This document shows, in pieces, positions 3,091 through 33,435 of a stretch of DNA of 34,763 nucleotides. Numbering within the stretch: position 1 is the first letter of the stretch; each line of letters opens with the position of its first letter. The notes below the pieces were generated by a model. It was not told the DNA's origin and ran no database searches. It saw only the letters and a list, made by a program, of their open reading frames with translations. A program made the translations under genes and the position numbers. Origin of the DNA: Pseudomonadales bacterium (GTDB lineage: Bacteria > Pseudomonadota > Gammaproteobacteria > Pseudomonadales > Ketobacteraceae); NCBI GenBank assembly GCA_002708905.1, contig PAPM01000013.1:1-34763 (forward strand), in the 5' to 3' direction.

Positions 3091-3110
3091 ACAATAATAA
3101 TCGGAGAACC
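3091..3110 (+). promoter_or_regulatory. CA motif next to the lipase-chaperone ribosome-binding site
   Basis: ACAATAATAA (3091-3100) contains AATAATAA, which fits the AAYAAYAA-type Hfq/Crc target. It is followed at once by the Shine-Dalgarno CGGAGA before the ATG at 3113. The placement is the one expected for Crc/Hfq translational repression, but a single copy in an AT-rich leader can occur by chance. Confidence 0.4.
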
Positions 3111-9270: not shown

Positions 9271-9284
9271 GTTATTGTTGTTAT
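9271..9284 (-). promoter_or_regulatory. CA motif (Hfq/Crc-type target) upstream of the lipoprotein gene
   Basis: On the minus strand ATAACAACAATAAC lies in the 39-bp gap between the GMC gene and the lipoprotein gene, about 5 nt upstream of the GTGAAGG ribosome-binding site. It matches the blocks in the predicted CrcZ RNA at 21533-21550. Confidence 0.6.
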
Positions 9285-9292
9285 GCCGGCCA

Positions 9293-10909
9293 TTAAAAGT
9301 CGTTCAGCAGAATGTTTTCGATATTGCGTTCCGCCAACGCTGAAATGGTCAAAGAGGGGTTCACGGCACCGGTACTGCCGTTGATCATGGCGCCATCCAT
9401 CACATACAAACGGTCATACCCCATCAATCGACCATGGGCATCTGCCGCCTGTCCCAGGATCGCGCCACCCAATGGATGGGCCGTGAAGGAGTCATTCACA
9501 TCCGGCACCACGCCCAACAGACCAGGCAGCGTCAGGCTGGCTTCGGCAATGCGGTTATTCATTTCCCGTGTTGCCGCCACCACATCCGCGTTACCCTCTT
9601 TGGGCCAGAGCAACGTAGTGGAGTCTGTGACAGGGTCATACTGGAAACGACAGCGGTTGGTCATATCAAACCCCATACCCAATGAGCCGATGGCGGAGAG
9701 ATTGACCGGCACATGCAGCGCATACCAGTTCTCCATCGTGATCGGCGTACCGAAGCCGGCATCGTGGATAATGCCGGCCGAAGGAGAGGCCTGGTACAGC
9801 CCCTGCAGTTCACTGGCGGTACGGACGACGGCGGTATCCCCATTGGTGCCCCAGCCTTCGCCAATAAACTCATTGAGGTTGGGCAAGTCGCCCAGCTCGC
9901 GGGCTTTGAGCAGCAATTCGGTGGTGCCGATGGAACCGGCCGCCATAAACAGGTAATCGCAGGCCAAAGTATACTGGTCGATGATTTCCCCCATGGGGTC
10001 GATCTGATCCACCTGAATCAGATAACGACCGTTACCATCCTGCCCCAGACTCTTCACCTGCATACCGGGATAGATAGTGGTATAACCACTGTCTTCCGCA
10101 TACTTCAGATAATTTTGGGTCAGATCAAACTTGGCCCCGTTACTGTTGCCATGGTTGCTTTCGCCGATGGAAGCAGAAGGACGGCTACGATAATGGAATT
10201 CCTTGCGTACCACATCCCAGTTCCAGATGCCATCAATGGGCTGGGGATCATAACCCGCCAGACGCACCTGTTTGTCCCACACCCGGGAATGACCAAAAGA
10301 AGGTTTGTAATACAGATCCCTGGGCAGCGGACTCAAGCGCAACATCTCCCTCACCCGCGGGTAATAGATGTTGTGCATCTCTTCGTAATTCACCACATCG
10401 CCGAAGATGGCTTCGAAATAATTACGCTGCGGTTCAATCATCACGCCGGTAAACACTTTCGAGCCACCGCCGACACAGGCACCCCGCCAGACATCAATGT
10501 GGTCATATTCCGTAACATCCAGCAAGCCTCCGAATTTATCAAAGGAGACAGTCAGCCCGGTCAGCTGCTTGGCACTGGTGCGGTGCCAAAAGGCGCGGCC
10601 GTCCGGGAAAAAATCGTTGGGATGAATTTTGCGCCAGGGATCGATGGGCCAACGGCAACCGCGTTCCAACACTGTGGTTTGAATGCCCGCCTGCGCCAGA
10701 CGGTAAGCAGAAATGGCACCGCCAAACCCGGAACCGATGACGATAGCAGGCGTATAGGCAGGGGGCCTGCTAACCGGTGCAAATAATTCCGGAACCTGCA
10801 AACGATACTTTTCCTCAGGAGTAGTGGCATGGGCCAGTTTGGGCAAGGCGGCACTGGCTCCGAGCACACCCAGACCGGCGCCCGCCTTAAATAAGTCTCG
10901 ACGTTTCAT
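9293..10909 (-). CDS. Tat-exported GMC oxidoreductase, cholesterol-oxidase-like
   Basis: The protein has 538 residues from the ATG at 10907-10909, chosen because it begins a twin-arginine signal (KRRDLFKAGAG, likely cleavage near AHA at about residue 27). An FAD-binding GxGxxG motif (VIGSGFGGAISA) is followed by ACVGGGSKVFTG, a GMC/cholesterol-oxidase signature. Near the C-terminus HPLGG supplies the conserved histidine, and AVNPSLTISALAER carries the conserved Asn of the flavin active site. The closest relatives I recognise are type I cholesterol oxidases (3-beta-hydroxysteroid oxidation and isomerisation), but the substrate could be another sterol or alcohol. It probably acts in the periplasm or outside the cell. 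The lipoprotein gene follows in the same operon. The leader is full of CA motifs reaching up to the start codon, predicting carbon catabolite repression. Confidence 0.87.
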   Translation of the reverse strand: MKRRDLFKAGAGLGVLGASAALPKLAHATTPEEKYRLQVPELFAPVSRPPAYTPAIVIGSGFGGAISAYRLAQAGIQTTVLERGCRWPIDPWRKIHPNDFFPDGRAFWHRTSAKQLTGLTVSFDKFGGLLDVTEYDHIDVWRGACVGGGSKVFTGVMIEPQRNYFEAIFGDVVNYEEMHNIYYPRVREMLRLSPLPRDLYYKPSFGHSRVWDKQVRLAGYDPQPIDGIWNWDVVRKEFHYRSRPSASIGESNHGNSNGAKFDLTQNYLKYAEDSGYTTIYPGMQVKSLGQDGNGRYLIQVDQIDPMGEIIDQYTLACDYLFMAAGSIGTTELLLKARELGDLPNLNEFIGEGWGTNGDTAVVRTASELQGLYQASPSAGIIHDAGFGTPITMENWYALHVPVNLSAIGSLGMGFDMTNRCRFQYDPVTDSTTLLWPKEGNADVVAATREMNNRIAEASLTLPGLLGVVPDVNDSFTAHPLGGAILGQAADAHGRLMGYDRLYVMDGAMINGSTGAVNPSLTISALAERNIENILLNDF

Positions 10910-10948
10910 TATTGTTGTTATCCGTTTTTTGTTGGTTTTTATTATTGG
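10910..10948 (-). promoter_or_regulatory. CA-rich Hfq/Crc-type target at the start codon of the GMC oxidase
   Basis: On the minus strand the leader reads CAATAATAAAAACCAACA, a short spacer, then ATAACAACAATA directly abutting the ATG. It holds at least two AAYAAYAA-type elements and no good Shine-Dalgarno. The block next to the ATG is nearly identical to those in the predicted CrcZ decoy RNA. Confidence 0.65.
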
Positions 10949-16563: not shown

Positions 16564-16740
16564 ATGTACATCGATCGGCTGGTTTTAATCTTCATCGTAG
16601 GCGCCTATGTGCTGTCGCCATCATTGATGCAATGGTGGGCGGAGAGCGGCACGGCCTGGTGGCGCCCCTTTATTATATGGGGCCTGCTGATCGCCGTTAC
16701 TTTCTGGATTGCGCGGAGTCGGGATCTGGATGGCTTTTAG
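16564..16740 (+). CDS. Small two-helix membrane protein overlapping cbrA
   Basis: The protein has 58 residues, from MYIDRLVLIFIVGAYVL to SRDLDGF. It has two hydrophobic segments (about 5-18 and 35-50), separated by MQWWAESGTAWWRPF. Its last 11 nt overlap the cbrA ATG (16730), a layout that suggests translational coupling. I recall a similar short frame at this position in Pseudomonas, which would make it a conserved member of the cbrAB locus. No function is established. A partnership with the CbrA transporter-like domain is an inference from overlap and topology. Confidence 0.7.
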   Translation: MYIDRLVLIFIVGAYVLSPSLMQWWAESGTAWWRPFIIWGLLIAVTFWIARSRDLDGF

Positions 16741-19717
16741 TGTTGCCCAGCTGTTTGGTATCGGGGTTGGCTACCTACTGTTATTCTTCCTGGTTGCTTA
16801 TCTCACAGAACATGGTTTTGTCCCGGCGCGCCTGGTGCGTCATCCCATTACCTATGTTTTGTCGCTGGGGGTGTTTGCCAGTGCCTGGGCGATTTACGGT
16901 GCCGTTGGTTTTGCCCATGATTTTGGTTACAACTTCCTGGCGTACTACCTGGGCATTTCCGGCGCGTTTATGCTGGCCCCCATTTTATTGGCCCCCATAC
17001 TCAGGCTCACCCAAACCTATCAGCTAGGCTCACTGGCCGACTTGCTGTCCTTTCGCTATCGCAGCCCGGTGGTGGGTGCGGTTGTCACCATTGCCATGCT
17101 GCTGGGCATCCTGCCGTTAATCGCACTGCAGATACAGGCCGTCGCCGATGCGGTGCACATTCTTAATGAAGAAACGTCCCAGGAAATTCTGGCTTTTGTG
17201 TTTGTGGTATTGATCATCATGTTCGCCATCCTGTTTGGTGCCCGTCACATCAGCACCCGGGAAAAACACGAAGGACTGGTGGTCGCCATCGCCTTTGAAT
17301 CCCTAGTGAAACTGATTGGCTTTCTGCTGGTGGGCGGCGTCATTCTGTTTGATGTTTTCGGCGGACCTGACGGCCTTAATACCTGGTTGGAGGAACACCC
17401 GGAACAATTGGTGTCACTGTATCAACCCTTGGAAGAAGGCCCCTGGCGTGCATTGGTGGCTGCGTTTTTTGTGGCGTCCGTGGGCATGCCCCACATGTTC
17501 CATATGGCGTTCACCGAAAACCTGAACCCCCGGGCCATCATGACGGCGAGCTGGGGCCTGCCGCTCTACATGTTCTTCATGGCCATTCCGGTGTTGATCA
17601 TCGTCTGGGCTGCCGCGAAACTGAATATCTTCAGCAACCCCGAATACTTCACGTTACTGGTTCCGGAAGCCCTCAACTCCAAATGGCTGGCCATCTTGGG
17701 CTTCGCCGCCGGCCTGTCTGCCGCCAGTGGCGTCATCATTGTCTGCACCCTGGCGCTATCCGCCATGTTCCTCAATCACATTATTCTGCCCATGGCACCC
17801 TTCTATCGCCGCAGCAACCTTTACTCCTGGCTGCTGTGGACGCGACGTATTCTGATCGCCGCCATTGTGCTGGTGAGTTACGGCTTTTATGTCATCATGC
17901 AGAACAAGCACACGTTATCGGAACTGGGTTTTCTCGCTTTCGTTGCCACCATGCAGTTCGTACCCGGACTGTTCGGCGTGTTGCTCTGGCCCAAGGCCAA
18001 CAAAGACGGCTTCCTGGCAGGCCTTGCCGCCGGTCTCAGTGTTTGGCTGTTTGGACTATTACTGCCCGTCCTGCTTGGCATTCAATTCCACATTTCCGCG
18101 CCACTGTTTTTTGACGATCTGTTTCCTACGCCGAACAACAGTTACATGGTAGCGACCTTTGCCATCTTCATTAACTCAACCATCTTCGGCATTGTCTGCA
18201 TGCTGACGGAATCCTCACCGGCCGAAATGCAGGCGGCAGAAACCTGCAACGTGGACAACCTGCGTCGCCCACAACGCTGGGAGCTCTCCATCTCTTCTGC
18301 CCGGGAGTTTATCGGGCGCCTGTCAAAACCTCTGGGTGCCAGCACTGCGCGCCGGGAAGTTGAACTGGCGCTAAACGATCTGGCCATGAGCCTGGACGAA
18401 ACCCGGCCCTACGCATTACGCCGCTTGCGGGATCAACTGGAGAGCAACCTGTCCGGCTTACTGGGGCCGTCCGTTGCCCATGAAATCATGAACAGCTCCA
18501 TTCCGTATGTGATTAAAAGTAATGACACCAGCAGTCAGGACATTCACTTCATTGAAAGCCGGCTGGAGGAATACCATGACAAACTCTCCGGATTGGCGGG
18601 CGAACTGGACAGCCTGCGTCGCTTCCACCGGCAGACGCTACAGGATCTGCCGGTAGGTGTGTGCTCACTGGGAAGTGATGGTGAGGTGCTGGGCTGGAAC
18701 AGTGCCCTGGAAACCATCACCCGGGTTTCTCCGGATCAGATCCTGGGTTCCCAGATCAGTCATCTGCCGGAACCCTGGAACAGCGTCTTCAGTCAGTTTA
18801 TTGAAAACGAATCCCGCACTCTGCAAGTGGAAGTGGAGTTGGATGGGGTACAGCGCTGGATCAGTCTGCACAAAGCCGCGGTAGGACTGGGCAAGATGAA
18901 CCAGATTAACAGTGGTCAGGTGGTGGTGGTGGAAGACACCACGGAAGTAAAAATGCTGGAACACCATGTGGCCCACAACGAGCGCCTGGCCTCCGTGGGC
19001 CGCCTGGCCGCAGGCGTGGCCCACGAGATCGGCAACCCGATCACCGGCATTGCCTGTCTGGCTCAGAATCTGCGTTACGACAGCCGTGAACCGGCTATTC
19101 TGGATAGTGCCGATCAAATCCTGGATCAAACCAAGCGCATTAGCCGAATCGTCCAATCCTTGGTAAGTTTCAGCCACAGCGGTACCACAGAAGTGGCCAT
19201 GGAACCGGTTTACGTGTATGAATGTGCCCAGGAAGCCATTGACCTGCTCAACCTGAATAAAGAAGTGGCCCAGGTGAACTTCATCAACCAGGCGGACCCC
19301 AATCACTGTGTAAAAGGGGATCAGCAGCGCTTGACCCAGGTATTCATCAATTTGTTGAGCAACGCCAGAGACGCCATGGGCGAAGGCGGCGAAGTCAGGG
19401 TCATCAGCCACGCCCGCGACCACACCATCGTGATTGACGTGGAAGACAACGGCTGCGGGATCCCAGCAGAGGTGCTCAAGCGCATTTATGAGCCCTTCGT
19501 CACCACGAAAGACCCCGGCAAGGGCACCGGATTGGGTATGTCGCTGGTCTACAGTATTGTTGAAGAGCATTACGGGCAAATTGTGATTCAAAGCCCACTG
19601 GATTCCGAAAACGGCGGAACCCGTGTTACCATAACTCTCCCCCGCTATACACTGTTAGCGGAGGAGCATTCTGAAGTCGACCATGAGGAACAGCATGAGC
19701 CACATCCTGATCGTTGA
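16730..19717 (+). CDS. cbrA: CbrA sensor histidine kinase with SLC5-like transporter domain
   Basis: The protein has 995 residues, close to Pseudomonas CbrA. The start at ATG 16730 ([10 protein letters not shown]) is chosen over an upstream TTG by resemblance to CbrA N-termini. Residues about 1-500 form a Na+/solute symporter-like (SLC5) membrane domain with about 13 helices. A linker follows, then a PAS domain (about 620-740, [15 protein letters not shown]), then HisKA with the phosphoacceptor in [11 protein letters not shown], and a HATPase domain with [19 protein letters not shown] and [10 protein letters not shown]. CbrA senses carbon/nitrogen status, linked in Pseudomonas to histidine uptake, and phosphorylates CbrB. 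It overlaps the small membrane gene upstream and cbrB downstream, so the three are coupled. Confidence 0.96.
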
Positions 19718-21095
19718 AGACGAAGCGGTTATACGTAACGCGCTGCGACGTCTTTTAGAGCGTAACGGCTACCAGATTAGTGAAGCCGGTGCGGTACAGG
19801 ATGCCATCGACAGTTTCAAATTGGGCGACTTTGACCTCATTATCACTGACCTGCGCCTCCCGGGTGCGCCCGGTACCGACATCATTCCCCAGGCTGACGG
19901 CGTGCCGGTACTGGTGATGACCAGCTATGCCAGTCTCAAGTCTGCTGTGGAATCCATGAAAATGGGTGCTGTGGATTATATTGCCAAGCCTTTCGACCAT
20001 GACGAAATGCTGATGTCGGTGGAGCGCATTCTCAAAGAGAAAGCGCTGGAGCGGGAGAATCACGCCCTCAAATCCCAGTTAAACCGGGATTACCCTTTGA
20101 GCGGCATGATCGGCGAATGCGAATCCATGCAGGTCCTGTTCAAGAATATTCAAAAAGTGGCCCCCACTGATTCCACCGTATTGGTGCTGGGGGAATCCGG
20201 TACCGGTAAGGAACTGGTGGCCCGCGCGGTTCATGACCAGAGCCAACGCCACGACGGCCCCCTGATTTCGGTGAACTGTGCCGCCATTCCGGAAACCCTG
20301 ATCGAGTCCGAGCTGTTCGGTCATGAGAAAGGGGCCTTCACCGGTGCCAATGCCAATCGCAAGGGCTTGGTAGAAGCGGCTGATGGTGGCACCCTGTTCC
20401 TGGACGAAATCGGCGAATTGCCTCTGGAAGCCCAGGCCCGCCTGCTGCGTCTGCTGCAGGAAAAGGAAGTGCGCCGGGTTGGTTCCGTGCAGTCAAAAAC
20501 CGTGGATGTCCGGCTGGTGGCCGCGACCCACCGCAACCTGAAGCACCTGGCGAAAGAAGGCCGCTTCCGGGAAGATTTGTATTACCGCCTTCACGTTGTG
20601 GAGCTGAAACTGCCACCACTGCGGGAACGGGGCAAGGACGTGGAAAAACTGGCCCGAGAGCTCCTGGCCCGCACCACAAGGCGCATGGCCAAGCAGGAAA
20701 TGTCTTTTTCCAAGGAAGCCATGGACGCCATCAACAAATACAGCTGGCCGGGTAACGTGCGCGAACTGGAGAACGCCATCGAGCGTGCAGTGATTCTGTG
20801 CGACGGCCAGGTCATCATGCCGGACCTGATGGCCCTGGATCTGCATTCCGAGCCGGAATATCAACTGGACGACGATGTCACCCTGCCCCGCCCCAGCAGC
20901 CGCAGCAATCTGGAAGAAGTGGAAGACCCTGCGGAAGACCTGTCCCTGGAAGACTACTTCCAACGCTTTGTACTGGAACACCAGGAACAGATGACCGAAA
21001 CCGAGCTGGCACAAAAGCTTGGAATCAGTCGCAAATGCCTGTGGGAACGCCGTCAAAGACTTGGCATTCCCCGCAAAAAGCCCGCCTCCCGCTGA
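19695..21095 (+). CDS. cbrB: CbrB sigma-54-dependent response regulator
   Basis: The protein has 466 residues from the ATG at 19695. This start gives [10 protein letters not shown] as in known CbrB and has AGGA five bases upstream; an in-frame ATG at 19683 is weaker. It has an NtrC-type layout: a receiver with phospho-Asp52 (DLRLPGAPG), an AAA+ domain with Walker A GESGTGKE (166-173), the sigma-54-contacting GAFTGA (213-218) and Walker [13 protein letters not shown], and a C-terminal Fis-type helix-turn-helix ([20 protein letters not shown]). It activates sigma-54 promoters, in Pseudomonas above all crcZ. The first 23 bases overlap the end of cbrA. Directly downstream lie enhancer-like repeats, a sigma-54 promoter and a CrcZ-like RNA. 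Confidence 0.97.
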
Positions 21096-21121
21096 AGACG
21101 AAAACCCGACACATCATCAGC

Positions 21122-21353
21122 GGTAACACCTGACTATTTTTTGACCTTATGTTACGGATTGTTACTGGCCAGTCTCAGACAATTGGCCAATTCTGTCCCT
21201 CGCCCCTGACCCTTTGATCCTTTTTCCCAGTCAAAACCTTGAATTGTTAACAAATTTAACCAAGCGTAACGGATGTGTTACCTGTGTTCCCCCACACCAA
21301 AGTGTTACCGTCATACACACCAACGGGAACACATACACATAAAACCGGTAACA
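21122..21353 (+). promoter_or_regulatory. Candidate CbrB upstream activating sequences
   Basis: There are seven copies of the half-site TGTTAC / GTAAC(A): 21123-21128, 21150-21155, 21160-21165, 21266-21270, 21276-21281, 21303-21308 and 21348-21353. They include an inverted pair, GTAAC-N6-GTTAC (21266-21281). They lie about 110-340 bp upstream of the predicted crcZ start, the right range for enhancers of a sigma-54 promoter. TGTTAC-type palindromes have been reported for CbrB in Pseudomonas; the assignment here rests on that and on position. Confidence 0.6.
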
Positions 21354-21436
21354 GAATATTGACCATTTACCACGTTTACATACTGCAACATTTATAACTG
21401 GCTGTTATATCTGCCTTTTTTTATTTTCAGCCAAGT

Positions 21437-21452
21437 TGGCACGCGCCCTGCT
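21437..21452 (+). promoter_or_regulatory. Sigma-54 promoter of the CrcZ-like RNA
   Basis: TGGCAC (21437-21442), a 5-bp spacer and CTGCT (21448-21452) give the -24 GG and -12 GC with exact spacing against TGGCAC-N5-TTGCW. The predicted transcription start is near 21463. No coding region begins behind it until pcnB at 21997, so the product is an RNA. Confidence 0.85.
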
Positions 21453-21462
21453 ATATATCTAG

Positions 21463-21857
21463 CGTACCAACAAGGGTCAGCCAAAAATAACTAATAACAA
21501 TAATAAACAGGCCCCCTTGAACAGTCGAAAGCAATAACAACAATAATAAAGCTCGGTGGTCACTTTTTAGGTGGCATACAGAAAGAGGACAACCTTCGGG
21601 TTGTGAGCCATAACAAGAACAATAATAAATGGCTTAGATTGTAAAATCCCTCTTACTGCCACAACCACCAAAAAAAATGAAACAACAATAAAAATAAGAA
21701 ACGCGATAACAACAACAAAAACAAGTCGCTAAAAAACAACAATAAGAGTCGGCACAAGACTGGGCCTTCGGGCCCAGTCAGAAAAAAGAATAGAGCTTCT
21801 ATAAAAACTACTACAAGCATGAAGCGTAAGGGAAAGTCGAAAGGCTTTCCCTTTTTG
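21463..21857 (+). ncRNA. crcZ: CrcZ-like Hfq/Crc-sequestering small RNA
   Basis: The predicted transcript is about 395 nt, close to the ~407 nt of P. aeruginosa CrcZ, and lies at the same position between cbrB and pcnB. It carries six CA-rich blocks: 21493-21508, 21533-21550, 21612-21629, 21681-21701, 21706-21724 and 21731-21747, for example AATAACAACAATAATAAA. Each contains one or more AAYAAYAA-like motifs. Two UUCG-capped hairpins (21589-21604 and 21758-21779) separate or follow the blocks, and an intrinsic terminator ends it. No credible open reading frame with a ribosome-binding site is seen. In Pseudomonas, CbrB with sigma-54 makes CrcZ when preferred carbon is absent, and CrcZ titrates Hfq/Crc away from target mRNAs. 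The same role is inferred here. crc and hfq are not in the window. Confidence 0.85.
21829..21857 (+). terminator. Intrinsic terminator of the CrcZ-like RNA
   Basis: AGGGAAAG pairs with CTTTCCCT, with two extra inner pairs closing on a GAAA tetraloop, followed by TTTTT and a second T run. It marks the 3' end about 140 bp before pcnB. Confidence 0.85.
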
Positions 21858-21996
21858 CTTTTTAGCCCCCCAAACTTCTCCAATCCGCTGAAAAACGGCT
21901 AACCTATTGAATAGAGTGTATTAGTCCGGCCACTCGGTGTTAGAATCGAGCCCATCTCAATCCACCGCTCAACATTACGGATAACTGACCTGCAGC

Positions 21997-23358
21997 ATGC
22001 CTAAACGGCTTATCAAAAAAATTAAAGGTTTAATCTCCGGCGACCAGGGCAAACCAACCCTGCGGGTGATTCCCCGCGGCGAACATCATTTCCCGGAAGA
22101 AGATATCCGCCGCAATGTTCATATCGTATTGGATGGGCTCACTGACGCAGGTTACGAAGCCTATCTTGTCGGTGGTTCCATTCGGGATGGCCTGATTGGC
22201 CTGCACCCCAAAGACTTTGATATCGCCACCAGCGCCACTCCCGAACAAATCAAAGCGGTTTTCCCCCGTAACTGTCGCCTGATCGGCCGTCGCTTTCGCC
22301 TGGCCCATGTGCGCTTCGGCCGTGAGATTCTGGAAGTGGCCACCTTCAGGGCCGGCCACGGCAAAGCGGAAGACAACGAACACCACTCCGCCCAATCGGA
22401 AGAAGGCATGTTACTGCGGGATAATGTATTCGGCACCCTGGATGAAGACGCCATCCGGCGGGACTTCACCGCCAATGCACTCTACTATCGTCACACCGAT
22501 GGTGCCGTGCTGGATTTCGTCAATGGCTACGAAGATATTCGCCATCAAACCCTGCGCCTGATCGGCGATCCGGAACAACGTTACCGGGAAGATCCGGTGC
22601 GCATGCTGCGAGCTGTGCGCTTTGCCGCCAAGCTGGACTTTGAGATTGAAACCAAGACCGCCGCTCCCATTCGCGAATTATCCGAATTGCTGGGGCTGAT
22701 CCCGCCCGCCCGCCTGTTCGAAGAAGTACTGAAATTATTTTTGGGTGGCTACGCCCAGTCGGTGTGGCCGCTGATGCTGGAATATGATCTGGCACGCTGG
22801 TTGTTCCCCCTGTCGGTGCCGGAAGTCAACGATAACGCCGGCGTGCAGACCATGATCGAGCTGGCACTGCGCAACACCGACAATCGACTGGCTGAGGGTA
22901 AACCGGTAACCCCGGCATTCCTGTTTGCCGTACTACTCTGGGGACCATTACAGAAAGAATGGCTGCGGGCTCAGGAAAACGGTATACATGCCGCTCCAGC
23001 CTTGCAAAAAGCCATTCAAAAAGTAACAGCTAAACAAGCCCAACATACTTCCATTCCCAAACGCTTTGGTTTACCCATGCGGGAAATCTGGGAACTGCAG
23101 GGACGATTGGACCAACGCTCCCCCAAGCGTTGTGAATCCCTGGTCCAACACCCCCGCTTCCGTGCCGCCTATGATCTGTTGTTGTTGCGGGAGGAAGCCG
23201 GTGAGATTGAGCCCGGACTGGGAGAATGGTGGACCCGCTATCAGGAGGCCGATACTGACGAGCGTGAGAAACTGTGCCAGGGCCTGGGCGGCAGCAAGAA
23301 GCCACGCCGTCGACGCCGCTACAAGAATCGCCGCCGCAGTACACCGCCCAACTCATGA
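21997..23358 (+). CDS. pcnB: Poly(A) polymerase PcnB
   Basis: The protein has 453 residues, typical of class II bacterial poly(A) polymerases, which add 3' poly(A) tails that promote RNA decay. The nucleotidyltransferase signature YLVGGSIRDGLIGLHPKDFDI (about 57-76) holds the catalytic DFD (73-75), followed by the RRDFTANALYY and RYREDPVRMLRAVRFAAKL motifs of the tRNA-nucleotidyltransferase superfamily. The Arg-rich tail (PRRRRRYKNRRR) suits RNA binding. The ATG at 21997 has no strong Shine-Dalgarno. The gene starts about 140 bp after the CrcZ-like terminator, and its TGA overlaps the folK start as ATGA. Confidence 0.95.
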   Translation: MPKRLIKKIKGLISGDQGKPTLRVIPRGEHHFPEEDIRRNVHIVLDGLTDAGYEAYLVGGSIRDGLIGLHPKDFDIATSATPEQIKAVFPRNCRLIGRRFRLAHVRFGREILEVATFRAGHGKAEDNEHHSAQSEEGMLLRDNVFGTLDEDAIRRDFTANALYYRHTDGAVLDFVNGYEDIRHQTLRLIGDPEQRYREDPVRMLRAVRFAAKLDFEIETKTAAPIRELSELLGLIPPARLFEEVLKLFLGGYAQSVWPLMLEYDLARWLFPLSVPEVNDNAGVQTMIELALRNTDNRLAEGKPVTPAFLFAVLLWGPLQKEWLRAQENGIHAAPALQKAIQKVTAKQAQHTSIPKRFGLPMREIWELQGRLDQRSPKRCESLVQHPRFRAAYDLLLLREEAGEIEPGLGEWWTRYQEADTDEREKLCQGLGGSKKPRRRRRYKNRRRSTPPNS

Positions 23359-29899: not shown

Positions 29900-31132
29900 T
29901 CAATCATGACGGGGAATCGTGAGCGCAAATACTGCGGCCAGCAAGACAAACAGGCTGGACACCAGTAAACAGGTTGTCAGCCCATAGGCTTGAAACAACC
30001 AACCGGACAACACCGTACCCAATAAACGTCCCATGGCATTGGCCATATAATAAAAACCGACATCCAGAGAGACGCCGTCTTCATCCGCATAACTGACGAT
30101 CAGATAGCTATGCAAAGAGGAATTCACAGCGAACAGAGCCCCGAAGAGTAGCAGCCCCGCTAACAGGCTTGCTTCCGGTTCCCAGCCGAAAAAGAGGCTC
30201 CCGGCAATAACAACAGGCAATAGCGACAGGGGCAATGCCCAGGCGAAGGCAGTACGACCGTCGGGTAGCTTGCCCTGAGCTTTGCCGGTTCCCGTAAAGC
30301 GCGGGGCCAGAGTCTGAACGAAACCGTAACCAATAACCCATACAGCGAGAAAACCACCCACCTGCCAATGGTCCCACTGGAAGTTCACCGCCAGGTAAAC
30401 CGGTAATGCCACCACAAACCAGACATCACGCGCAGCAAAGAGAAACAACCGTGCCGCCGACAAACGATTGATCGCCGGGCTCTTGGAGAAGATCTGGCTG
30501 AACTTGGGTTTATTCCTGGATTTACCCAGATCCTGACGCAGATAAATCATGCTGAGCAACCAGATCAACGCCAACACCAAGGCCATCGCCAGCACAGCGC
30601 CCTGAAAACCAACTGAAACCAACAACCCGCCGCCAAGAAAAAAGCCCGCACCTTTCAAGGCATTTTTAGAACCGGTTAACAGCGCCACCCACTGGTACAG
30701 CCTGCCCTGGGCATCCGCCGGCACCAGCAGCTTGATAGCGCTTTTCGCACTCATCTTATTGAGGTCTTTGGCAATACCGGATAGAGCCTGCGCCGCCATC
30801 ACCCAGGGCACAGTCAACAGGGGCGCAGGCACCAACAACATGGACAATGCCGCCACTTGCAAAAACAACCCCAGATTCATGGTGCGGTTCAAACCCAGAC
30901 GGGCACCCAACCAACCACCAATCAGGTTGGTGACCACACCAAAGAACTCGTAGAACAAAAACAGCAAAGCAATTTCCAGCGGGCGATAACCCAGCTCATG
31001 GAAATGCAGCACTACCAACATGCGCAGGGCACCATCAGTGAGGGTGAATGCCCAATAATTACCGGTCACCAACAGGTACTGGCGAATAGCCGGTGACAGG
31101 TTTGACAGCCTCACTTTTGACAGGTCCCCCAT
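29900..31132 (-). CDS. arsJ: ArsJ organoarsenical efflux MFS transporter
   Basis: The protein has 410 residues from the ATG at 31130-31132, five bases behind the stop of the GAPDH gene. It is a 12-helix major facilitator protein. The N-terminal NYWAFTLTDGALRMLVVL and FLFYEFFGVVTNLIGGWLG are features I recognise from ArsJ. In the known pathway GAPDH joins arsenate to glyceraldehyde 3-phosphate, giving 1-arseno-3-phosphoglycerate, and ArsJ exports this unstable product. The adjacent GAPDH gene and upstream arsR fit that role. An upstream in-frame start inside the GAPDH gene is not favoured. Confidence 0.92.
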   Translation of the reverse strand: MGDLSKVRLSNLSPAIRQYLLVTGNYWAFTLTDGALRMLVVLHFHELGYRPLEIALLFLFYEFFGVVTNLIGGWLGARLGLNRTMNLGLFLQVAALSMLLVPAPLLTVPWVMAAQALSGIAKDLNKMSAKSAIKLLVPADAQGRLYQWVALLTGSKNALKGAGFFLGGGLLVSVGFQGAVLAMALVLALIWLLSMIYLRQDLGKSRNKPKFSQIFSKSPAINRLSAARLFLFAARDVWFVVALPVYLAVNFQWDHWQVGGFLAVWVIGYGFVQTLAPRFTGTGKAQGKLPDGRTAFAWALPLSLLPVVIAGSLFFGWEPEASLLAGLLLFGALFAVNSSLHSYLIVSYADEDGVSLDVGFYYMANAMGRLLGTVLSGWLFQAYGLTTCLLVSSLFVLLAAVFALTIPRHD

Positions 31133-31137
31133 CGAGC

Positions 31138-32148
31138 CTATGCCTGATCCAGTCGCGCCACTTTTAATACCAGTTCGGCGGTACGATTGGCGTAACCCCA
31201 CTCATTGTCATACCAGGCATACAACTTCACCTGGGTACCATTCACCACCATAGTAGAGAGTGCATCAATAATGCTGGAGCGGGGATCGGTTTTGTAATCG
31301 ATGGAAACCAGGGGCCGCTCTTCATAGCCCAGAATACCGTTCAACTCACCAGCGGCGGCCTGCTGCAACAGGGTATTCACCTCTTCAACAGTAGTGGCAC
31401 GCTTCACTTCGAATACGCAATCCGTCAACGAGGCATTGGCCAGGGGCACCCGCACCGCGTGCCCGTTCAAACGCCCCTTCAATTCCGGAAAAATATGGGT
31501 AATGGCCGTGGCCGATCCTGTGGTGGTCGGGATCAAACTCATACCACAAGCGCGGGCCCGGCGTAGATCCTTATGAGGTGCGTCCAGAATGGTTTGGGTA
31601 TTGGTTATGTCGTGAATGGTGGTCATGGAACCGTGTTCGATACCCAGGCTTTCGTGGATCACTTTCACCACCGGAGCCAGACAGTTGGTGGTGCAGGATG
31701 CTGCAGTAACAATGGGGTGGTTCGCTGGATCGTAAAGCTGATCGTTCACCCCCATCACTACATTAAGCACGCCTTCTTCCTTCACCGGAGCCGTTACCAC
31801 CACCCGTTTTACACCCTGATCCAGATAGGCTTGCAACAGCTCTCTGGTCTTCATTTTGCCGGAGGCTTCAATCACCACATCGCAGCCGGACCAGTCGGTT
31901 TCAGCGATGGTTTTAAACCGGCTACAGGGAATCACCTGCTCGCCAATCATCATGTTGTCCCTGTCGTAGCCGGCTTCCTGCTGCCAGCGTCCATGCACGG
32001 AATCAAAATTCAACAGGTGCGCCAGCGTCGCGGCATCACCGGCCGGATCGTTAATTCGTTGCACACGAATGTCCTGATGCTGAAACAGCGCTCTCAGGGA
32101 AAGCCGCCCCATGCGACCAAAACCATTAATACCAATACTGATCGTCAT
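31138..32148 (-). CDS. gapdh: ArsJ-associated glyceraldehyde-3-phosphate dehydrogenase
   Basis: The protein has 336 residues. The Rossmann motif INGFGRMGR, catalytic Cys152 (SCTTNC) and His179 (TTIHDIT) of classical phosphorylating GAPDH are all present, as is the C-terminal [12 protein letters not shown]. Its position directly before arsJ in an arsR-led operon suggests it serves arsenate detoxification rather than glycolysis: it would accept arsenate in place of phosphate and pass the arsenylated product to ArsJ. GGAAAAG precedes the ATG, which lies 13 bp after the thioredoxin-like gene. Confidence 0.93.
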
Positions 32149-32161
32149 ACAATCTTTTCCA

Positions 32162-32398
32162 TCAGGACTTTAACCAGGCTTCAATATCGACACGATGGGG
32201 AATAGAACCACTGTGCACCAGTTTGTCATCCACCACCACCGCCGGTGTACTCATTACACCAAAGGACATCATTACCTGGGGGTCACTTTCTTTTTCCACC
32301 AGGATCTCTACACCCAATTCTTCGGCAATATGCTTGATACTGTCTGCAGTCTTGTTGCATTTCGTGCAACCGCTGCCCAATACTTTTATCGCTTTCAT
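32162..32398 (-). CDS. Small thioredoxin-like protein (redox-active disulfide protein 2 family)
   Basis: The protein has 78 residues. The CxxC motif is C11-T-K-C14 in GSGCTKCN, and the thioredoxin cis-Pro is in MSTPAVVVD. This compact glutaredoxin/thioredoxin-like family commonly accompanies ArsP/DUF318-type permease genes. The role may be to reduce or deliver substrate to the permease, or to keep its cysteines reduced (inference). GAGGA precedes the ATG. It lies 20 bp behind the permease gene and 13 bp ahead of the GAPDH gene, within the ars operon. Confidence 0.88.
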
Positions 32399-32418
32399 TT
32401 GCGCATCCTCGTAACAAT

Positions 32419-33435
32419 CTACAGAGAAAAGTTCAGTGCATTAAAAATCCAACCCACCAGCGTAAACGCCAGCAGCAACAGGCCAAACACTGTGGCCAAC
32501 AAACGCCACTGCATAACCTGCTTCAACAAAATAAACTCAGGAAAGCTGGCCGCCACGGTACTCATGCAAAACGCCAGGGTTGTGCCTACCGGCAACCCTT
32601 TCAACAGCAGGCTTTCAATCACCGGAATCACACCGGTGGCATTGGAATAGAGGGGAATCCCCATCAATACAGCGGCGGGGACCGTCCACCATTGCCCGCT
32701 GCCAAGGTTATTCTCGAGCCAGCCATCAGGGACATAGCCATGCAGCCCGGCGCCCAGCCCGACACCGATGAAGACCCATTTCCAAACCCGCAGCAAAATA
32801 TCCAGGGTTTCATCTTTGGCGAAGCTGTGACGTTGCGACCAGGTCATACGTTGCGCGGTGGTCTCTCCCAACTGAAGTGTCTGAGCTTGTGCCTGGGGCT
32901 GAGCCCGGGCCTGCTGCAACGCCTTGGCAGCAAAGGGTTGCAACCACCGTTCGGCCCGAATCATGTCAAGCAAGGCCCCACCCAGGATACCAACACCCAT
33001 ACCCACCACCACGTATAGCAGCGTAAACTGCCAACCCAACAGGCTGAGCAACAACATTACCGCCACTTCGTTAATCAACGGCGATGTCAGCAGAAACGCC
33101 ATGGTAATGCCCACCGGAATACCGGCAGAGGTAAACCCGAGGAACAGGGGAATACTGGAGCAGGAACAGAACGGGGTGATGGCACCAAACCCGGAACCCA
33201 ATGCATAACCCAGGGCACGGCGTTTACCCACCAGAAAATCCCGCACCTTTTCGACTCGCAATGACGCTCTGAGCAAAGCAATCACATAGATCATCACCAC
33301 CAGTAACACAAAAATTTTGGTGGTATCTTCAATAAAGAAATGGAGGGCATCTGCCAACTTGGTGCCCGGTTGCAATTTGAGGACATCATAAACCAGCAGA
33401 TCCGCCAGTTTTCCAAATAAGGCCAGTGGAGACAT
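32419..33435 (-). CDS. ArsP-like permease (DUF318 family)
   Basis: The protein has 338 residues with about eight to ten membrane helices and a central cytoplasmic loop (about 165-205). The hallmark PFCSCSSIPLF carries Cys90 and Cys92, as in permeases of the ArsP_1 family; some export trivalent organoarsenicals such as methylarsenite. Whether this one does so, or exports inorganic arsenic, cannot be told. It lies 10 bp after arsR with GAGGAG as ribosome-binding site. No ArsB or Acr3 arsenite pump is present, so this may be the trivalent-arsenic exporter of the operon. Confidence 0.88.
   Translation of the reverse strand: MSPLALFGKLADLLVYDVLKLQPGTKLADALHFFIEDTTKIFVLLVVMIYVIALLRASLRVEKVRDFLVGKRRALGYALGSGFGAITPFCSCSSIPLFLGFTSAGIPVGITMAFLLTSPLINEVAVMLLLSLLGWQFTLLYVVVGMGVGILGGALLDMIRAERWLQPFAAKALQQARAQPQAQAQTLQLGETTAQRMTWSQRHSFAKDETLDILLRVWKWVFIGVGLGAGLHGYVPDGWLENNLGSGQWWTVPAAVLMGIPLYSNATGVIPVIESLLLKGLPVGTTLAFCMSTVAASFPEFILLKQVMQWRLLATVFGLLLLAFTLVGWIFNALNFSL

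Follow-up and report, generated by a model that had tools for sequence, protein, structure and literature searches.

The gap between cbrB and pcnB in a Ketobacter bacterium probably holds a gene for a CrcZ-type decoy RNA, driven by CbrAB and sigma-54, which would titrate Hfq alone, without Crc. The original prediction, of a decoy resembling CrcZ at the equivalent locus outside Pseudomonas, is supported by synteny, the sigma-54 promoter, the length, the A-rich blocks, and the terminator, with a reservation over the spacing of the CbrB-like site. From this locus we infer transcription of the RNA, activation by CbrB, binding and titration of Hfq, and control by carbon source.

Anatomy of the locus and its predicted RNA

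The window (the whole stretch of DNA analysed, 34,763 nt) is the complete contig C12 of a 5.4-Mb genome (G000), which is assembled in 48 contigs and is 99.99% complete. Its PcnB is 91% identical to that of a Ketobacter sp. MAG, the closest named relative, and Ketobacter is classified in the Pseudomonadales, family Ketobacteraceae. The features of the locus are as follows.

16709-19717, plus strand: cbrA, predicted start (Pfam HisKA, HATPase_c, and PAS)
19683-21095, plus strand: cbrB, sigma-54-dependent response regulator (Pfam Response_reg and Sigma54_activat)
21303-21308, 21326-21331, and 21348-21353, plus strand: CbrB-like triple TGTTAC-N17-GGAACA-N16-GTAACA, one mismatch to the published consensus
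21437-21452, plus strand: sigma-54 promoter, -24/-12 elements, TGGCACGCGCCCTGCT, exact GG-N10-GC
21463-21863, plus strand: predicted CrcZ-like RNA of about 400 nt (from promoter and terminator positions, two-sided pair changes, and fold z)
21493-21507, plus strand: A-rich block 1, A-R-N run
21530-21550, plus strand: A-rich block 2, A-R-N run
21612-21629, plus strand: A-rich block 3, 17-nt loop of hairpin 21605-21635 with a 7-bp stem
21681-21701, plus strand: A-rich block 4, A-R-N run, deleted in G112
21708-21725, plus strand: A-rich block 5, 17-nt loop of hairpin 21703-21729 with a 5-bp stem, deleted in G112
21732-21749, plus strand: A-rich block 6, A-R-N run
21780-21794, plus strand: seventh, purine-type A-R-N run
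21828-21853, to 21863 with its tail, plus strand: intrinsic terminator, stem-loop with an 11-bp stem, 4-nt loop, and T-rich tail
21997-23358, plus strand: pcnB, poly(A) polymerase, the downstream neighbour (TIGR01942, 499.5 bits)

Over about residues 2-985, the cbrA product is 53%–54% identical to that of the cbrB-adjacent gene in five Pseudomonas loci; a symporter domain was not called in it (Pfam, E 0.001). CbrB is 67%–68% identical to the product of the equivalently placed gene of five Pseudomonas loci. The intervening gap (21096-21996), originally put at about 900 bp, measures 901 bp, and both of its flanking genes are confirmed by Pfam/NCBIfam matches and by identity. Elsewhere in the window (29900-33435, minus strand) lie MFS and ArsP-type permease genes, for which an ArsJ operon had been named.

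The GG-N10-GC at 21437-21452 agrees with the sigma-54 promoter of exact spacing that had been proposed, and the transcription start expected about 12 nt past its GC falls on the proposed position, 21463. The pattern TGGCAY-N7-GCW has a single further match in the 34.8-kb window on both strands, and 22 of the 26 columns from 21437 to 21462 are invariant in six genomes of the genus.

The CbrB-like triple begins 134 bp 5′ of the -24 element. The published CbrB consensus is TGTTAC-N12-14-GTAACA-N15-19-GTAACA (PMC8871633), whereas the first spacer of the window triple is 17 nt. With the published spacings, the best site in the gap has 4 mismatches, an unremarkable score reached or bettered by 22 of 300 shuffles, and the published spacing was thus rejected as a description of the window site; the triple emerges only when the scan is widened to spacers of 10–20 and 12–22 nt. 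Scanned in this way, 29 of 56 promoter matches carry a triple with at most one mismatch (among them all 10 loci scanned in the window's family and three of four in f21, the Pseudomonas family), with 27 of these 29 beginning 121–136 bp 5′ of the promoter, and 0 of 1120 mononucleotide shuffles come within two mismatches. The same widened scan finds no triple at 14 of the 56 promoter matches, which include one inside pcnB (G123) that is probably false. At the Pseudomonas CrcZ, the CbrB sites lie 123–124 bp 5′ of the -24 element (three f21 loci), compared with 132–135 bp in the window's family (ten loci). At two Pseudomonas-type loci (L125 and L126), the Rfam sRNA P36 lies directly upstream of CrcZ, in the region of the promoter and CbrB sites.

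Between 21463 and 21857, AAYAAYAA occurs 15 times in the sense and never in the antisense direction, compared with a mean of 0.39 and a maximum of 5 in 5000 dinucleotide shuffles, and the six CA blocks of this type originally described are thereby confirmed. These blocks are the first six of seven A-R-N runs of at least five triplets in the RNA (2000 shuffles: mean 0.54, maximum 4). A-R-N repeats are the motif of the Hfq distal face, and P. aeruginosa CrcZ is a 407-nt RNA with six A-rich stretches bound by that face (PMC4063720). The 17-nt loops approximate to six A-R-N triplets (18 nt) and might therefore fit one Hfq hexamer.

The 403-nt stretch 21463-21865 has a predicted folding energy of -105.3 kcal/mol (z -8.2 against shuffles), with hairpins between and around the A-rich blocks, much as had been described between or after them. 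The intrinsic terminator expected to close an RNA of about 395 nt is present at 21828-21853, and all six genomes of the genus retain its helix; a simple terminator scan of the gap finds two against a shuffle mean of 1.1 (sd 0.9), which alone is not above chance. A small protein-coding gene within the RNA was considered and rejected, as the sole sense ORF of at least 20 aa is 27 aa long and extends through the terminator.

The window RNA has in common with CrcZ of Pseudomonas and Azotobacter (RF01675) its position between cbrB and pcnB, a sigma-54 promoter, a length of about 400 nt, six A-rich blocks, and a terminator, with possible CbrB-type sites upstream of the promoter; it differs in the longer first CbrB spacer, in a genome without detectable crc, and in a sub-threshold score. 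The covariance-model comparison suggested with the original prediction turned out negative: the locus scores 31 bits with the Rfam CrcZ model against a threshold of 95, and the whole window has no match at the Rfam gathering threshold. As controls, four of four f21 (Pseudomonas-type) loci score 268–361, and 0 of 16 non-f21 loci reach 95 (best 66.7). RF01675 has no match over the window's own genome, but the control genomes are likewise without one, and the own-genome search is therefore no proof of absence.

Additional RNAs of the CrcZ type, CrcY and CrcX, are described from P. putida, A. vinelandii, and P. syringae (PMC8871633); they are A-rich like the window RNA and antagonise Hfq/Crc. A second CrcZ-like locus, in contrast, is not seen in the window's genome, where AAYAAYAAYAA reaches at most two overlapping matches per place outside the array; the control column tells nothing in this case, as the pattern is identical when reversed. 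RsmY and RsmZ are decoy RNAs of RsmA. As proposed for the window RNA, they are driven by a two-component system and sequester a protein through repeated motifs, but the window RNA has A-R-N blocks of the Hfq type and just two GGA trinucleotides in 21463-21857. Decoys of the RsmY/RsmZ type also figure in PMC8871633.

Conservation within the genus and spread across the order

The gap was aligned for the six genomes of the window's genus (g1) returned by the searches. All keep the promoter, array, and terminator layout, with one (G112) lacking 57 nt that carry blocks 4 and 5. Invariant columns number 232 of 398 in the transcript (21463-21860) and 84 of 196 in 21241-21436, compared with 39 of 145 farther upstream and 32 of 136 downstream. 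When the structure predicted for the window is laid on this alignment, 95.1% of cells pair, and nine base pairs are changed on both sides, against 1.8 in shuffles (0 of 500 as high) and 0–2 in slid structures; the genomes are six related ones, one of which supplied the structure, and the nine changes are confined to two rows (G187 and G112). The stem of the block 3 hairpin contains two pairs changed on both sides, with 100% of cells paired, and that of block 5 is paired in all five genomes possessing it.

The placing of A-rich blocks in loops was also scored beyond the genus. Across 55 order-wide loci (56 minus G307, dropped for N), predicted folds put 81 of 285 blocks in loops of 12–24 nt with a closing stem of 4 bp or more, compared with a mean of 20.8 and a maximum of 32 over 40 rounds in which the linkers were shuffled and the blocks kept. 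The counts are 14 of 39 in genus g1 (6.65 expected, maximum 10) and 27 of 57 in f36 (3.6 expected, maximum 9), with no excess in f21 (three of 22; 1.5 expected, maximum 4).

For the order as a whole, 390 Pseudomonadales genomes were searched for PcnB, and one representative was taken for each of 60 genera (26 families); these are the genera, of 142, with a PcnB position among the matches listed, and the sample is biased toward better matches. An array was counted where AAYAAYAA occurred at least twice and the shuffle p did not exceed 0.02. Among the 52 Crc-encoding representatives, cbrB lies beside pcnB in 45, and an array is present in 42 and absent from 10; cbrB, sigma-54 box, and array occur together beside pcnB in 40, from 18 families, with AAYAAYAA counts from 2 (five genera) up to 15. 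All eight Crc-less representatives have a cbrB relative, seven of them an array, and two a sigma-54 box too. Genus g1, outside the 60, adds six more loci, that of the window among them, each with an array and a box.

According to a 2022 review (PMC8871633), the cbrA-cbrB-crcZ arrangement is described only in Pseudomonas and Azotobacter, and the matches listed from the open-licence literature, as far as the cited parts of those papers extend, include no report of a crcZ-like locus outside these two genera. CbrA/CbrB transcripts are present in an ocean metatranscriptome, the organisms not being named in the part of that paper cited (PMC5073097), and Crc-based control is mentioned for Acinetobacter baylyi (PMC6456745).

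The number of AAYAAYAA sites is 15 in the window, 2–6 in the four f21 representatives, and 10–15 in f16, where three representatives have an array. Enlargement of the array through loss of Crc was considered but is not supported, given that those three f16 representatives encode Crc and that four crc-less f43 representatives have 3–7 sites.

Several loci depart from the common layout. Hahella (L010) has the sigma-54 box and half-sites, with an array of AAAAATAAAAA-type repeats containing little C. Alcanivorax-type crc-less relatives (L017 and L128-L131; G150, G094, G123, and G296) have TGTTAC/GTAACA half-sites, an A-rich array, and a terminator-like hairpin in the cbrB-pcnB gap; a TGGCA-type sigma-54 box was not found at these loci, which have a TTGCAA element and a possible -10 box in its place, and it looks as if their promoter class has changed. 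The crc-less genus g4 (L007, L090, and L170; G248), a sister genus within the window's family, encodes a CbrB-like protein (47.6% identity) adjoining pcnB, with no array found. G042 (L171 and L204), a member of the window's family with crc beside pyrE, has neither cbrB nor an array within 2.7 kb upstream of pcnB.

Crc and Hfq in the genome

True Crc is recognised by its identity to P. aeruginosa Crc: identity is 84%–85% in Pseudomonas and 45% in Microbulbifer, and the gene adjoins pyrE in both. A profile built from three sequences (A1) matches 334 of the 390 Pseudomonadales genomes. Of these, 20 fall short of 1e-30 (5e-5 to 9e-29) and are taken for probable related nucleases, and about 314 genomes, counted by eye, match at 1e-30 or better. 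The same profile detects Crc in none of the six genomes of genus g1, five of which are drafts and one of which (G080) is a single contig. The 15 genomes of the window's family, some of them incomplete, yield one strong match (G042, 7.3e-81, its crc divergent from pyrE) and one weak match (G165). Family f43, in which the CbrB tree places an Alcanivorax MAG, has nine weak matches and 0 of 17 of the 1e-30 grade.

A PF03372 search of the window's genome returns four proteins, all of which were tested as Crc candidates and rejected. In L205 of that genome, the end of rph at 1468 is followed by the start of pyrE at 1471, the junction being intact and crc-free. An exonuclease-III-type PF03372 protein of the sister genome G001 (107 bits) was not found in the window's assembly, and gaps in that assembly are therefore possible; the lack of a Crc match throughout the genus, one-contig G080 included, is independent of them.

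These results bear on the alternative that the locus belongs to a usual Hfq/Crc/CrcZ system of catabolite repression of the Pseudomonas type, whose Crc would be either too diverged to be recognised or missing from the assemblies. Every feature of the locus matches CrcZ, and both the draft state of five of the six genomes and the possible gaps in G000 leave room for an overlooked gene. The alternative is nevertheless unlikely, as a search that succeeds in about 314 of 390 genomes, and in G042 within the family, finds nothing in any of the six genus g1 genomes, with the PF03372 proteins and the rph-pyrE junction giving the same answer. By the presence of crc, which the original prediction had named as a check, the Hfq/Crc/CrcZ reading fails in this genome. 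Its suggestion that the system reaches further than described holds for CbrAB and the CrcZ-like array, found as they are in 40 of 52 sampled Crc-encoding genera, but not for Crc here.

In a CbrB tree of 58 rows (three from genus g1), Ketobacter, f43, and the Crc-encoding G039 form a group of 10 rows (support 93/82) next to the Crc-encoding f17 (12 rows, 97/91); the crc-less G128, on a long branch, and G010 fall elsewhere. This placement suggests that crc was more likely lost, in one or more events, than primitively absent.

Hfq is present in 30 of 30 genomes examined. In the window's genome, for which Hfq had likewise been named as a check, it has a conserved core, with Phe instead of Tyr at residue 25. 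This substitution occurs in 13 of 13 crc-less genomes examined but also in seven of 17 Crc-encoding ones, and it was rejected as a marker of Crc loss because it is unspecific.

Candidate target genes and the proposed role of the RNA

On the target side, AAYAAYAAYAA has 85 matches genome-wide, nine of them inside the array, and the remaining 76 merge into 67 sites. A gene start, as called by a simple script, lies -12 to 60 nt downstream on the same strand for 25 of the 67 and on the opposite strand for 3 (Fisher p 3e-6); for random positions, the proportion with such a gene start is 3.9%. Sites outside ORFs make up 42 of the 67, compared with 15.9% of random positions. When A-rich 11-mers of identical composition are compared, those out of register being counted in the loci analysed, 28 of 76 in register and 35 of 347 out of register fall at gene starts (Fisher p 7e-8, a rough value, since overlapping matches are counted apart).

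The 25 motif-bearing genes are a mixed set, not purely catabolic: nine have no Pfam match at 1e-6, and the others include genes for a FadL/TodX-type outer-membrane transporter, a Reductase_C reductase, an amidohydrolase, and NRPS-type proteins, as well as for a GGDEF protein, a GST, and a type II/IV secretion ATPase. First-copy FadL genes have an A-rich start tract in five of six genomes (three AAYAAYAA and two looser A-R-N); it was not seen at the best FadL match of G112 (55% identity) or at five second-copy FadL genes, whose starts are uncertain. Within the window, two sites are candidates for Hfq binding.

10909-10919, minus strand: candidate Hfq site at the start of a GMC-type oxidoreductase gene (10909 down to 9293); AACAACAATAA ends on the A of the ATG (10909)
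9272-9282, minus strand: candidate Hfq site of gene 9253-8453, for which no family was found; AACAACAATAA lies 18 nt 5′ of the ATG

Also in the window, AATAATAA occurs at 3093-3100, directly 5′ of the start of a lipase-chaperone-like gene (3113). On contig C23 of the same genome (82255-114132), NRPS-type, aminotransferase, and thioesterase genes have AAYAAYAAYAA at their starts.

Most simply, genes with A-rich starts in Ketobacter would be repressed by Hfq alone, and the RNA would relieve this repression. CbrA-CbrB, acting with sigma-54 at 21437, would transcribe the RNA of about 400 nt, the A-rich blocks of which would fit the distal face of Hfq; once abundant, the RNA would pull Hfq away from the A-rich translation starts of other mRNAs, and their translation would be freed. 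With crc apparently lost, the target of the decoy would be Hfq by itself rather than Hfq complexed with Crc. Such a decoy is mechanistically possible, since it is the distal face of Hfq that CrcZ binds, with Crc strengthening the grip of Hfq on RNA (PMC5815094) and itself reported to be without RNA binding (PMC3662782). In P. aeruginosa, however, suppressors of a crcZ deletion lie mostly in crc, which indicates a strict need for Crc in efficient repression (PMC10714802); a decoy retained without Crc is therefore unexpected, and a Crc-less lineage might well have abandoned the function.

A structured RNA serving a different purpose, be it a pcnB leader or regulator, a base-pairing sRNA, or a sponge, for example of the RsmA type, would suit a position upstream of pcnB and the reported contacts of P. 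aeruginosa CrcZ with RsmA and RsmN (PMC8871633). This also seems quite improbable, given the conserved terminator between the RNA and pcnB, the scarcity of GGA, and an array built from the Hfq distal-face motif (PMC4063720), which clusters at gene starts. Least probable is a decaying relic, purposeless since the loss of Crc, for although Crc is not detectable, G112 lacks blocks 4 and 5, and g4 (G248) lacks the array, the promoter and transcript are more conserved than their flanks, the pair changes are compensatory, and the density of the array matches that in relatives with Crc.

The titration of Hfq by a CrcZ-type RNA thus remains our preferred reading of the locus. There is perhaps an even chance that it holds more widely, with CbrAB, a CrcZ-type RNA, and Hfq forming a circuit across the Pseudomonadales that is workable without Crc; Ketobacter-Alcanivorax lineages would have lost crc and kept the decoy, Hfq alone would repress genes with A-rich starts, and the RNA, with some of its blocks in 17-nt loops, would release them.

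What is new relative to the 2022 review (PMC8871633) is the occurrence of cbrB, sigma-54 box, and array in 40 of the 52 sampled Crc-encoding genera, from 18 families. This order-wide spread makes the age of the circuit testable. An apparently Crc-less lineage in which the decoy and its promoter persist, along with gene starts bearing the motif, constitutes a natural experiment on how Hfq and CrcZ behave in the absence of Crc. Both Ketobacter and Alcanivorax use hydrocarbons, and the question is thus also of applied interest.
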